NCBI GenBank assembly: GCA_016180435.1
Contig: JACPBG010000007.1
Location: 1-55,362, forward strand
Direction: 5' to 3'
Length of the DNA stretch: 55,362 nt
Source: Candidatus Sungiibacteriota bacterium
GTDB taxonomy: Bacteria; Patescibacteriota; Minisyncoccia; Sungbacterales; HO2-52-23
Shown: in pieces, positions 3,236-50,478 of the stretch
Position numbering within the stretch: the stretch's first letter is position 1
Layout: the number at the start of each line of letters is the position of its first letter
Program-made: the position numbers and the translations under genes
Notes under the pieces: generated by a model
Database searches by the model: none
Seen by the model: only the letters and a program-made list of their open reading frames with translations
What the model was told of the DNA's origin: nothing

Positions 3236-3257
3236 AAGAGCGTGTGGTGTCTTCGGC

Positions 3258-3379
3258 GATATGATTTGGAAACACGACTCGGCGGCTCCGGCGGCCGCCT
3301 CGCTAAAGGTCGGGCGAAGTTTTCCGCGATTACGCGGAAACCAAGCAACTTCGCCCTCCCATTGTTTCCAAATCATATC
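3258..3379 (-). repeat. structured palindromic repeat, family A, copy 1
   Basis: Perfect 16-bp outer arms (3258-3273 and 3364-3379). Read on the minus strand, it holds the family's order of parts: ATGGGAGG, a variable stem (GGCGAAGTT), the invariant GCTTGG, an inner hairpin (TTTCCGCG/CGCGGAAA), the second half of the variable stem, CGACC, a GGCGGC/GCCGCC hairpin and GAGTCGT. Three other copies keep the invariant motifs while the stem sequences differ. It separates two co-directional prepilin genes. Confidence 0.85.
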
Positions 3380-3415
3380 ACCTCAACCACGCTATAGAAT
3401 AAACGTACATCCATA

Positions 3416-27913: not shown

Positions 27914-28192
27914 ATGGGACTTCCAACGCGGAAACACTACGAAGAATTCGTTGGAGAGAACGAATTCAATCAGATGTCGCAAAATCTGCAAAATTATGTC
28001 AGGGCGGTTTTCGGATTGGTCAAAATCTCGGAAAAAAGCGAGCAGGAGCTGTGGGAGAAATTGACGGCGGATTACGAAAAGAATGATGGGGACGCTTCGC
28101 TAGAGCGGTTTTCAGCAATTGGTTTTACAGACACGCAAAAATTTCCCGGCGAGAAATTTTTCTCAGGACTCGGCATTGCTCTTTCTGCCTAA
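27914..28192 (+). CDS. small chimeric protein; C-terminus read from a palindromic element
   Basis: A 92-aa protein with three parts. Residues 1-30 (MGLPTRKHYEEFVGENEFNQ...) look like an ordinary helical start. Residues about 31-52 (VFGLVKISEKSEQELWEKLT) are encoded by 69 nt (28003-28071) identical to 36679-36747, where a 44-aa protein carries the same segment. From about residue 62 on the frame runs into an inverted repeat, giving RFSAIGFTDTQKFPGEKFFS and an abnormal end. It is probably a gene cut short by the repeat. Function unknown. Confidence 0.5.
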   Translation: MGLPTRKHYEEFVGENEFNQMSQNLQNYVRAVFGLVKISEKSEQELWEKLTADYEKNDGDASLERFSAIGFTDTQKFPGEKFFSGLGIALSA

Positions 28193-28262
28193 AGCGGAAA
28201 TCCGTGCCCGCAATGCCTCGTCATGGTCTGTAAAATCAATTGTTGAAAACCGCGTATATGCT
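28100..28262. repeat. inverted repeat element truncating the upstream gene
   Basis: GCGGTTTTCAGCAATTGG and TTTTACAGAC at the left edge (about 28102-28131) are complementary, with few mismatches, to GTCTGTAAAATCAATTG and TTGAAAACCGC at the right edge (about 28225-28254). An inner AAAAATTTC/GAAATTTTT hairpin lies inside. It ends the reading frame begun at 27914. Confidence 0.7.
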
Positions 28263-33186: not shown

Positions 33187-33525
33187 CTCGCTTGATGGGT
33201 TTTCTTATTGTATCCGCCTGCGGCGGTCTCACTAAGGAATCGGTCTTTCAATGTTTTTAAAAGCACATTTCCTCGCTTAATAGATTTCCTTATTGTTGGC
33301 GCTTCGCGCCTCTTGATTATTTCAAAAACGTATTAGGCTCGCTTGATGGTTTTCTTATTGTATCCGCCTGCGGCGGCTCCTGCGGCGGCCTGCAGGGTCG
33401 GGTGAGATACCCCGCTGATGCGGGAACCAAGCTATCTCACCCTCCCATTGTCTGAAATTACAATATACGAAACCGCAATCACTCACTTAATAGATTTTCT
33501 TTATGTAGGCCTGGCAGGCCTTTAT
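33187..33525. repeat. four-copy hairpin array (family C) enclosing a family A repeat
   Basis: A unit of about 40 bp, CTCGCTTGATGG, TTTTCTTATTGT and a terminal GC hairpin, occurs at about 33187, 33272, 33331 and 33480. The hairpin sequence changes between units (CCGCCTGCGGCGG, GGCGCTTCGCGCC, GGCCTGGCAGGCC) but always pairs. Partly decayed relatives occur near 34164 (inverted), 39031 and 48858. No gene lies in 33043-33705. Confidence 0.7.
33380..33470 (-). repeat. structured palindromic repeat, family A, copy 2
   Basis: Read on the minus strand: CAATGGGAGG, stem GGTGAGATA/TATCTCACC (33433-33441 with 33401-33409), invariant GCTTGG, hairpin CCCGC/GCGGG, CGACCC and CCGCAGGAGC. Confidence 0.85.
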
Positions 33526-36172: not shown

Positions 36173-36399
36173 GACTTCACCATTTTCATAGATCTGTCAC
36201 TAATGGTAGCATCTCATCGTTAAGTGTCAAGATAATAAAAAACGCCGGAGGCGGTTACATAAATTTATCCCATTTTTCAATGAAATTACAAAAATTTTTT
36301 AGCGAGGTAGGACTCCAATTTTATCCAATTAAGGCAGGACATTTAAGGGCGAGGCGCTATGCATTTTTGCGAAATTTACGAAGGCGCAGCCGTTTTCCA

Positions 36400-36534
36400 A
36401 GCGAGGCATCATACGTTTCGAGGCAATGGGAGGGCAAACAGCTTGGTCTTCCGTGGAGTGGAAGTGTTTGCCCGACCCCGCAGGCTGCCGCAGGAGCAGC
36501 CGAGGACTTGCCGAGAAACGCATGGTGCCGAGCA
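36400..36534 (+). repeat. structured palindromic repeat, family A, copy 3
   Basis: CAATGGGAGG, stem GGGCAAACA (36432-36440)/TGTTTGCCC (36465-36473), invariant GCTTGG, hairpin CTTCC/GGAAG, CGACC, hairpin GGCTGC/GCAGCC around CGCAGGA. Outer arms near ACGTTTCGAGGCA and TTGCCGAGAAACG are complementary with mismatches. The region 36173-36623 has no gene; 36280-36400 carries partial repeats with GCGAGG boxes. Confidence 0.85.
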
Positions 36535-36623
36535 AGATTTTGTTCGCGCCGCAGTACTTGAGCAAAACGCATAATGTCGAGCAGAGATTTTGTCTCGAAC
36601 GCAGGTTTGAATTAAATCAACAG

Positions 36624-39044: not shown

Positions 39045-39215
39045 ATTGAGAAAACTCCAACCTCCACATAAGGAAAAGGAAAGAGCGAGGTACTATGCGG
39101 ATCCGCGCAATGGTGGAGGTTAAATCTTTAATTCATGCGCGAGGTAATACGATTTCGAGACAATGGGAGAAGAAATTGGCCGTTGAAAACGGCTACCTTC
39201 AGCAAATCAAGAGCG
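39045..39215. repeat. non-coding repeat block including a truncated family A copy
   Basis: AACCTCCAC/GTGGAGGTT hairpin (about 39059-39122), then GCGAGGTAATACGATTTCGA and GACAATGGGAG (39137-39167), which matches the 5' part of family A, after which the sequence diverges. The whole 38981-39368 gap has no gene. Confidence 0.55.
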
Positions 39216-48781: not shown

Positions 48782-48931
48782 GTTTTTTCGCTCGCCCTCC
48801 CAAATTTTGCATTACAAAACTTGGGATTTTGGATTCTTTAGTCATTTTATTTAATAGCGCGAAGTGCTACATTAAGCAAACTTACATCACAACAACACAG
48901 ATGAGGGCTTATAAAGATTTTATGCGAGCGA

Positions 48932-49060
48932 GGTTATTTCAATTTCAGACAATGGGAGGACAAAATTGCTTGGTTTTCCGCCTAGGGCGGAAAAATTTTG
49001 TCCGACCCTTAGCGAGCGAGCCGCAGGAGCGAGCGAGTCGTGTCTGAAATTGGAATAACC
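48932..49060 (+). repeat. structured palindromic repeat, family A, copy 4
   Basis: Outer 20-bp arms (48932-48951, 49041-49060; one mismatch). Inside: CAATGGGAG, stem GGACAAAATT (48958-48967)/AATTTTGTCC (48994-49003), invariant GCTTGG, hairpin TTTTCCGCC/GGCGGAAAA, CGACCC, CCGCAGGAGC and GAGTCGTG. Lies between sufB and the cysteine-rich gene. Confidence 0.9.
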
Positions 49061-49080
49061 GAGTGAACAACCGCATAAAA

Positions 49081-50478
49081 TTATCCCACCGCCCCCTCCA
49101 TCTGCAACTCAATCAACCTATTCATCTCAACAGCATAGTCAATGGGAAGATACTTCATAAGCGGCTCAAAAAATCCGGTAACTATCAAGGAGGATGCTTC
49201 AATTTCCGAAAGTCCGCGGGATCGCAGATAAAATAATTCTTTTTCGCCAAGTTTGGACACCCGCGCCTCATGCTCCACCCGAACCTGCTCTTCGTCAATT
49301 TTTTGCGTAGGATAAGTGTCGGCGCGTGATTCCGGATCAAGGATCAGGGCATCGCATCGCACGGATAGCCGCGAGTTTTTGGCGCCGCGCACTACGCGCG
49401 ACATGCCGCGGTATGAAGTTTTACCTCCGCCAAACGATACGGATTTAGATATAACGTTAGAAATAGTATCCGGCGCTATATGAATCATTTTGGCTCCGGC
49501 ATCCTGACTTTGACCGGATCCGGCAAGCGCGATTGAAAGCGTATCGGCCCGCGCTCCGCGTCCTGCCAAAATTACCGACGGATATTTCATAGTAACTTTA
49601 GAACCCAGATTGCAATCAATCCATTCCACAAATGCGCCTTCCTCGGCACGCGCGCGCTTGGTAACCAAATTATAAACATTTTTTGACCAATTTTGAACCG
49701 TGATATAACGGACTCTTGAATGCGGATGCGCAATAATTTCAACCACTGCCGCATGCAAAGAATCAGTAGAGTATATGGGGGCAGTGCACCCCTCTAAATA
49801 TGTAAGCTCACTTCCTTCATCCGCGATTATCAAAGTCCGCTCAAATTGCCCGAAATTTTCCGAATTTATGCGAAAATAGGCCTGAAGCGGCATTTCAACT
49901 TTTACGTCCTTGGGCACATAAATAAATGACCCGCCGGACCATACCGCGGAATTTAGCGCCGCCAGTTTATTATCTCCGACCGGAATTACTGTTCCGAAAT
50001 ATTTTCGGAAAATTTCCGGATATTCGCGAAGAGCGGTGTCGGTGTCGCAAAAAATCACGCCTTTGCGCGCAAGATTGTCGCGGATCGCATGGTAAATCAC
50101 ATCCGAATCATACTGCGCCGCCGCACCCGCAAAAAATTTACGCTCCGCTTCCGGCACGCCGATTTTCTCAAACGTATTTTTAATTTCCACGGGAACATCG
50201 TCCCAGTTATTCGCTTTTTTATCCCAGGGCCGGATATAATAAATTATTTTTGATAAATCTATTCCCGAAAGATCCGCTCCCCAAGTTGGCATCGGCTTTG
50301 CTTCAAAAACTTTCAACGCATCCAGCCGAAAACGCCGCATCCACTCGGGCTCGTTTTTAATGCGGGACATTTCTTCAGCCGTTTCTCGTGATAAACCCGG
50401 GGTCGCCGCATATACGGATTTATGTTCATCCCGAAATCCGTAACGATATTCAACTGGTAATGGATTTTGCGATTTCAT
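49081..50478 (-). CDS. sufB: Fe-S cluster assembly protein SufB
   Basis: A 465-aa core of the SufBCD scaffold, where clusters are built. YRYGFRDEHKSVYAATPGLS, GSFIYVPKDVKVEMPLQAYF, YLEGCTAPIYSTDSLHAAVV, SVSFGGGKTSYRGMSRVV and RVEHEARVSKLGEKELFYLR are family blocks. Length is normal. sufC follows upstream on the same strand (transcribed before sufB), separated by a + strand single-gene unit. Confidence 0.96.
   Translation of the reverse strand: MKSQNPLPVEYRYGFRDEHKSVYAATPGLSRETAEEMSRIKNEPEWMRRFRLDALKVFEAKPMPTWGADLSGIDLSKIIYYIRPWDKKANNWDDVPVEIKNTFEKIGVPEAERKFFAGAAAQYDSDVIYHAIRDNLARKGVIFCDTDTALREYPEIFRKYFGTVIPVGDNKLAALNSAVWSGGSFIYVPKDVKVEMPLQAYFRINSENFGQFERTLIIADEGSELTYLEGCTAPIYSTDSLHAAVVEIIAHPHSRVRYITVQNWSKNVYNLVTKRARAEEGAFVEWIDCNLGSKVTMKYPSVILAGRGARADTLSIALAGSGQSQDAGAKMIHIAPDTISNVISKSVSFGGGKTSYRGMSRVVRGAKNSRLSVRCDALILDPESRADTYPTQKIDEEQVRVEHEARVSKLGEKELFYLRSRGLSEIEASSLIVTGFFEPLMKYLPIDYAVEMNRLIELQMEGAVG

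Follow-up and report, generated by a model that had tools for sequence, protein, structure and literature searches.

The 55,362-nt stretch of contig JACPBG010000007.1 of a Candidatus Sungiibacteriota bacterium analysed here (the window) contains five copies of a non-coding element of ~130–150 bp, termed family A, of which the copy at 48924–49067 is the main subject. The helices of family A vary freely from copy to copy while pairing, loops and mismatches stay fixed, which points to the fold as the selected feature. There is next to no doubt that the family exists and that its helices covary, and it is well supported that its copies move or are copied to new sites. The explanation favoured here, at about an even chance, is that family A is a non-autonomous element resembling repetitive extragenic palindromic (REP) sequences, which is recognised by its fold, moves as folded single-stranded DNA (ssDNA), and some copies of which were later placed under constraint. 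A preliminary description, made from the sequence alone, had taken the element to be structured, as RNA or as ssDNA, and had considered that it might be mobile and non-autonomous or belong to an unrecognised RNA family; covariation, copying, empty sites and the lack of an Rfam match support this proposal. Apparently, family A is an undescribed variant of dispersed structured repeats. Screening of papers on Parcubacteria and palindromic repeats, miniature inverted-repeat transposable elements (MITEs) or noncoding RNAs by title and abstract brought up no match to it.

Structure of the element and its copies in the window

The copy at 48924–49067 (plus strand) is complete, belongs to type 1 and matches the covariance model, R1, with 142.5 bits (E 4.4e-32). 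Its outer helix P1 (~20 bp) is formed by the 5′ arm GGTTATTTCAATTTCAGACA (48932–48951) and the 3′ arm TGTCTGAAATTGGAATAACC (49041–49060), with a tandem G·A (GCGA/GAGT) immediately outside, in DNA as well as RNA folds. The 5′ side of P2 (48954–48967) begins with GGGA and continues with the stem GGACAAAATT, and its 3′ side (48994–49007) consists of AATTTTGTCC and GACC; GGGA and GACC oppose each other in a tandem G·A/A·G mismatch, and the stem is supported by pair covariation. The 5′ bulge GCTTGG (48968–48973) is invariant in the alignment of copies, with GCATGG and GCTCGG as variants, and is followed by the apical hairpin P3 (48974–48993), which comparison of orthologs shows to be exchangeable. 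P4 (49012–49037), likewise supported by covariation, is a hairpin of the form GCGA-stem-CGCAGGA-stem-GAG, that is, with the closing GCGA/GAG and the loop CGCNGGA of the family. P1, P2 and P4 come together at a three-way junction whose loops are fixed. Two main subtypes are distinguished by the length of P2 and the flank of P4.

The four copies of the preliminary description (3258–3379, 33380–33470, 36400–36534 and 48932–49060) are all real and lie at or near these places according to the limits set by the covariance model; a fifth full copy at 28107–28252 (minus strand; 62.3 bits), divergent and with the P2 flank AC-GA/GA-GT, had been overlooked. Another full type-1 copy, at 3248–3390 (minus strand; 141.3 bits), has an ortholog in the same-genus genome G010 (C36:1952–2095) with a 93.6% identical core, and the copy at 36397–36536 (plus strand; 93.8 bits) is of type 2, with a P2 stem of 9 nt (CCGCAGG...GAGGACTTG). 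In the copy at 33347–33475 (minus strand; 65.1 bits), listed as chimeric or truncated, a hairpin with a TACAATAAGAAAA tail takes the place of the 3′ outer arm, and P1 folds poorly. Sequence and pair counts bear out that each copy has its own P2 stem, perfectly paired with its own partner; copy-specific, complementary outer arms were found in three of the four originally listed copies, the exception being 33347–33475, whose 3′ arm is lost. The 3′ end GAGTCGTG, taken to be common to the copies, is limited to one type, as the copy at 36397 ends in the type-2 sequence GAGGACTTG. What had been called a truncated copy at 39137–39167 is a solo 5′ arm plus CAATGGGAG (39137–39170, plus strand) without a 3′ half, containing nothing beyond the arm and ATGGGAG.

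Covariation and the folding strand

Among the 20 own-genome copies on which the covariance model was built, 37 of 49 pairs have changes on both sides, and the covariation score is 0.511, compared with 0.190 for shuffled and 0.09–0.14 for slid controls. In a set of 50 copies taken from other genomes, covariation is seen at 48 of the 49 pairs (score 0.916 versus 0.213 for the control), and 93.9% of the cells are paired versus 57.1% in shuffled and 37–51% in slid alignments; since this alignment was fitted to the model, the slid controls weigh most. In distant copies the tandem G·A stays in place while the adjoining pairs covary (GG/CC, GC/GC, CTT/AAG). The strong internal covariation claimed from the four copies thus extends to copies genome-wide, and the search of the genome and other Parcubacteria with a covariance model, proposed as a check, yielded many more copies, which covary.

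Long perfect palindromes are corrected by template switching between their arms, and complementarity could in this way be preserved as a neutral by-product, without any selection. For family A this is hardly credible: the mismatched tandem G·A and the loops are conserved rather than corrected, and the orthologous copies are constrained (see below). Furthermore, the seven least diverged copy pairs contain six one-sided differences and one two-sided, with two-sided differences appearing at higher divergence; few as these pairs are, this is the pattern expected of stepwise compensation under selection.

On the ATGGGAGG strand, P1 contains 67 G·U as opposed to 19 A·C mismatches, as counted with a parser admitting only Watson-Crick pairs and among related copies, so that the counts are not independent. 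The excess of G·U, and that of G·A over C·T, recurs in all three sets of (again related) copies, from the own genome, the same genus and other genera. These biases indicate that the ATGGGAGG strand is the folding strand. In the three copies tested it is predicted to be more stable than its complement, both as RNA and as DNA; the complementary strand is also predicted to be very stable as RNA (−56 to −70 kcal/mol).

Distribution

The genome that harbours the window (G000) comprises 1.055 Mb in 11 contigs, of which ~0.98 Mb was searched (without C4 56001–128000, C2, C3 and C5). The motif GGGAGGN2–20GCTTGG occurs five times in the window, where 0.05 occurrences are expected, and 24 times genome-wide versus none for the backwards control. 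A strict parser returned 39 candidates from G000, 38 of them convincing; the covariance model returned 60 matches to E 0.1, of which 44 reach at least 60 bits. All are dispersed, none lies in an array. The model has matches in 10 of the 13 family genomes and in 15 of the 23 from the order, whereas in a class-wide sample, filtered more strictly (E≤1e-9), its occurrence is patchy (21 of 286). Of 84,980 species genomes searched with an exact pattern, only four records matched, all of them metagenome-assembled genomes; three are titled Parcubacteria and one merely “bacterium”. It has no match in viral contigs, and carriage by viruses was therefore set aside.

Movement and nesting

The copies at C7:36758 and C7:174548 are 95.4% identical over exactly 151 bp, and their flanks are unrelated. 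At 23 sites syntenic with G010, both genomes have a copy in 12 cases and G010 lacks it in 11; one of the empty sites is clean (C7:26219–26358), the others are remodelled. Some of the 12 shared sites hold different copies, and alignments indicate clear orthology for ~5. The search for empty sites, likewise proposed earlier, was thus productive, and together with the near-identical pair at unrelated loci these sites support the mobile part of the earlier proposal. In the favoured explanation, recognition would proceed via the fold of the ATGGGAGG strand, namely P1, P2 with its tandem G·A and GCTTGG bulge, the apical hairpin, and P4 at the three-way junction; we infer that the element may move as folded ssDNA on which a putative enzyme acts in trans, much as happens with REP sequences and the ends of IS200/IS605 insertion sequences.

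A second element, B, is, like A, non-coding and palindromic and resides in the same genomes, but differs by a conserved sequence (131 bp), clear terminal repeats and 4-bp direct repeats (CTTG, TAAA, TTTA). Element B, noted at C1:61195, C1 rev 54187, C8 rev 4759, 176450 and 195071 and C7:353612 of G000 and at C28:8153 of G010, is inserted in the CTTG bulge of six diverse A copies of G000 and one of G010; a solo perfect palindrome likewise carries it in its CTTG loop. This argues for exposure of the bulge at the DNA level, and the apparent preference of B for CTTG bulges and loops would mean that it targets DNA hairpin loops. One A copy is nested within the arms of another. This illustrates how the complex intergenic hairpins of Parcubacteria arise, through palindromes inserted within palindromes. 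A more far-reaching proposal, which we entertain only tentatively, is that family A is a novel type of mobile or genetic element, spread through the Paceibacteria and defined by its three-dimensional nucleic-acid fold alone, with a putative enzyme reading the three-way junction, the tandem G·A and the GCTTGG bulge, and that it serves as a docking site for other palindromic elements.

Other palindromic sequences accompany the family. The apical hairpin of the copy at C1:120741–120954 of G000 exemplifies a type with a GTAG-tagged GTAGTCCCTCGACAAACTCTGGAACTA inside a CCGAGCACTCA...TGAGTGCTCGG hairpin; such hairpins amount to two nested elements within A, the innermost of them REP-like. A mosaic repeat, consisting of a GC-rich hairpin and then TACAATAAGAAAA, is located upstream of many A copies of G000 and at 33200–33480 of the window; it is frequently linked in chains to 5′ halves of A. 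The idea that this hairpin-TACAATAAGAAAA unit is a constant upstream part of A was rejected, as only five of the 16 matches to a strict regular expression precede an A copy. A further palindromic family, CCCCGTTAGAACGGGCGCTTCGCGACC ... GGCGTTCTAACGGGG (C1:112293, C7:39333, 85319 and 100371), has the words AATGGGAG, CGACCC and TTTAGCGAG in common with family A.

Gene context and constraint

With genes called by a simple hexamer caller written for this analysis, 34 of the 44 G000 copies (those of at least 60 bits) have a gene no more than 20 nt from the 3′ end, and 4 of 44 have one that close to the 5′ end; overlap with a called gene exceeds 60 nt in a single copy. A convergent stop codon is found within 20 nt of the 3′ end in 27 copies of G000 and 17 of G010; the start codon of a co-oriented gene is abutted by 7 and 3 copies, respectively. 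The same tendency in 3′-end placement is seen in other genomes besides G010. The main copy is a case in point: a SufB-like gene (49081–50478, minus strand; PF01458, E 2.2e-80) faces its 3′ end with the stop codon, ~14 nt away.

It is conceivable from this placement that the ends or the stability of mRNAs are set by the complementary strand, which would be transcribed after the stop codon and form a barrier or a site for RNase III; such a role has been put forward for REP, ERIC and NEMIS sequences. The abutting convergent stops and the predicted stability of that strand as RNA are what this function would call for. We nevertheless consider it unlikely, as the pattern of mismatches points to folding of the opposite strand, the inspected flanks show no T-run after the hairpins, and the copies at start codons of co-oriented genes are positioned otherwise.

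Clear ortholog pairs of G000 and G010 have 87–98% identical cores (the script split one additional pair incorrectly), although the apical hairpin is wholly different between some of them. Identity at four-fold sites averages 0.50 genome-wide, and is 0.34–0.58 in most genes flanking the ortholog loci and 0.76 in one. The cores are thus far more conserved than four-fold sites, which argues that some copies are selected for. Such constraint also fits a structured RNA, that is, a ATGGGAGG strand transcribed from a multiplied gene and working as a small RNA or as a cis element to which a conserved protein binds; the fixed loops, tandem G·A, bulge, three-way junction and strand-specific excess of G·U would suit an RNA as well. 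Against it, the gene next to the 3′ end runs antisense to the folding strand in most copies (~70–80%), the 120 nt upstream contain no excess of sigma-70-like promoters (8.09, with 8.14 for the opposite strand and 7.99 for random intergenic sequence), and before some constrained copies there are only 10–25 nt to the next gene. Antisense placement, scant upstream room and the lack of a promoter excess weaken the case for an RNA gene. Moreover, no consistently associated gene was seen; a search of the window with Rfam 15 returned tRNAs only, and at nine copy-bearing loci (E≤1) no family scored above its gathering threshold at the copies. A structured RNA is therefore possible but rather improbable. 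In the REP-like explanation, which is preferred, the constraint may have been acquired after insertion, some copies being kept since their fold serves the host in mRNA-end formation, transcription or DNA architecture; this host function, like the ssDNA route, is an interpretation of the patterns described.

Candidate mobilising systems

The preliminary description had allowed for the motif being the fixed end of a known insertion sequence. No IS200/IS605, TnpB or IS110 gene was found in the searched part of G000; membership in IS200/IS605 was rejected given the lack of both Y1 transposase and TnpB there. The IS110 transposase domain (PF02371) is absent from all 13 genomes of the family, as is the Nop domain (PF01798), and TIGR-Tas was discarded for the latter reason and because the copies are dispersed instead of forming a tandem array. 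The terminal inverted repeats of DDE-type MITEs are absent: the arms are copy-specific, and only short ends of the GCGAG..CGAGC type recur. The sole reverse transcriptase match (PF00078), a gene at C8:159194–160696 of G000 in a type I restriction locus, sits between HsdM- and HsdS-like genes, which makes a defence gene more likely; it is possibly a defence reverse transcriptase, and was rejected as mobiliser. REP-associated tyrosine transposases (RAYTs) were rejected too, as none is encoded in the searched part of G000 and those examined in relatives have no bordering A copies.

It is accordingly very improbable that family A represents an end or an attachment site belonging to a known mobile system (integron attC, an IS200/IS605 end, IS110 bridge RNA or a TIGR array). 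Variable stems around fixed unpaired bases do resemble the logic of REP sequences (PMC8266576) and also that of attC; yet no genes of such systems were found in the searched G000 (an integron integrase was not searched for), the consensus has neither a GTAG tag nor an attC R-box, and the copies are dispersed.

Several observations also count against the REP-like explanation itself. No Y1 (HUH) transposase was found in G000, ~7% of the genome lying outside the search, and around the ten RAYT/Y1 loci examined in relatives there is no A copy to a distance of ~1.5 kb; the RAYT-like Y1 genes there are each bordered by a short, copy-specific perfect palindrome of their own, for example TAGAGGTCGGACCTCTA or TACGAGACCTGGCCTCGTA. 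No fixed target site or target duplication has emerged for A, the clean empty site and the near-identical pair showing no clear duplication. From GC skew, a reading confounded with gene orientation, the folding strand coincides mostly (28:10) with the strand that should stay double-stranded at the fork, and purifying selection on single copies is unexpected for a purely selfish repeat.

Comparison with known repeat systems

TnpA-REP enzymes read bulges, mismatches and loops in folded ssDNA in a strand-specific manner (PMC8266576), and GTAG REPs are described as having G·T pairs and compensatory changes in their stems, as lying close to stop codons and as being nested in palindromes (PMC3733652). 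Like REPs and REPINs, family A is dispersed, extragenic and palindromic, with many copies near stop codons; G·T pairing, compensatory stem variants and nesting in palindromes are further parallels. It differs in size (~140 bp versus 20–40), in having a three-way junction instead of a single hairpin, in its almost freely variable stems, and in lacking the GTAG/CGTC tag, which is absent from the conserved columns of 20 copies; RAYTs are missing from the searched G000, and none bordered by A was seen in relatives. As the tests for the defining tag and for a RAYT failed, family A is described here as working like a REP rather than as being one.

Integron attC sites have variable stem sequences and conserved unpaired features. 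By analogy, A also varies its stems and keeps its unpaired features; however, its consensus has no R″/R′ boxes (RYYYAAC...GTTRRRY), its copies lie outside arrays, and an integrase was not looked for. ERIC and NEMIS (Correia) sequences are intergenic imperfect palindromes of ~100–150 bp whose mobility is unknown or borrowed; there the sequence is conserved, whereas in A the pairing of the helices is kept and their sequence is not. With ~50 copies per genome, orthologs and empty sites, structure-guided mobility or a new class of RNA becomes testable in a little-cultured radiation. While dispersed bacterial repeats are as a rule recognised by sequence, in family A nearly every helix position is free and it is the fold that is selected.
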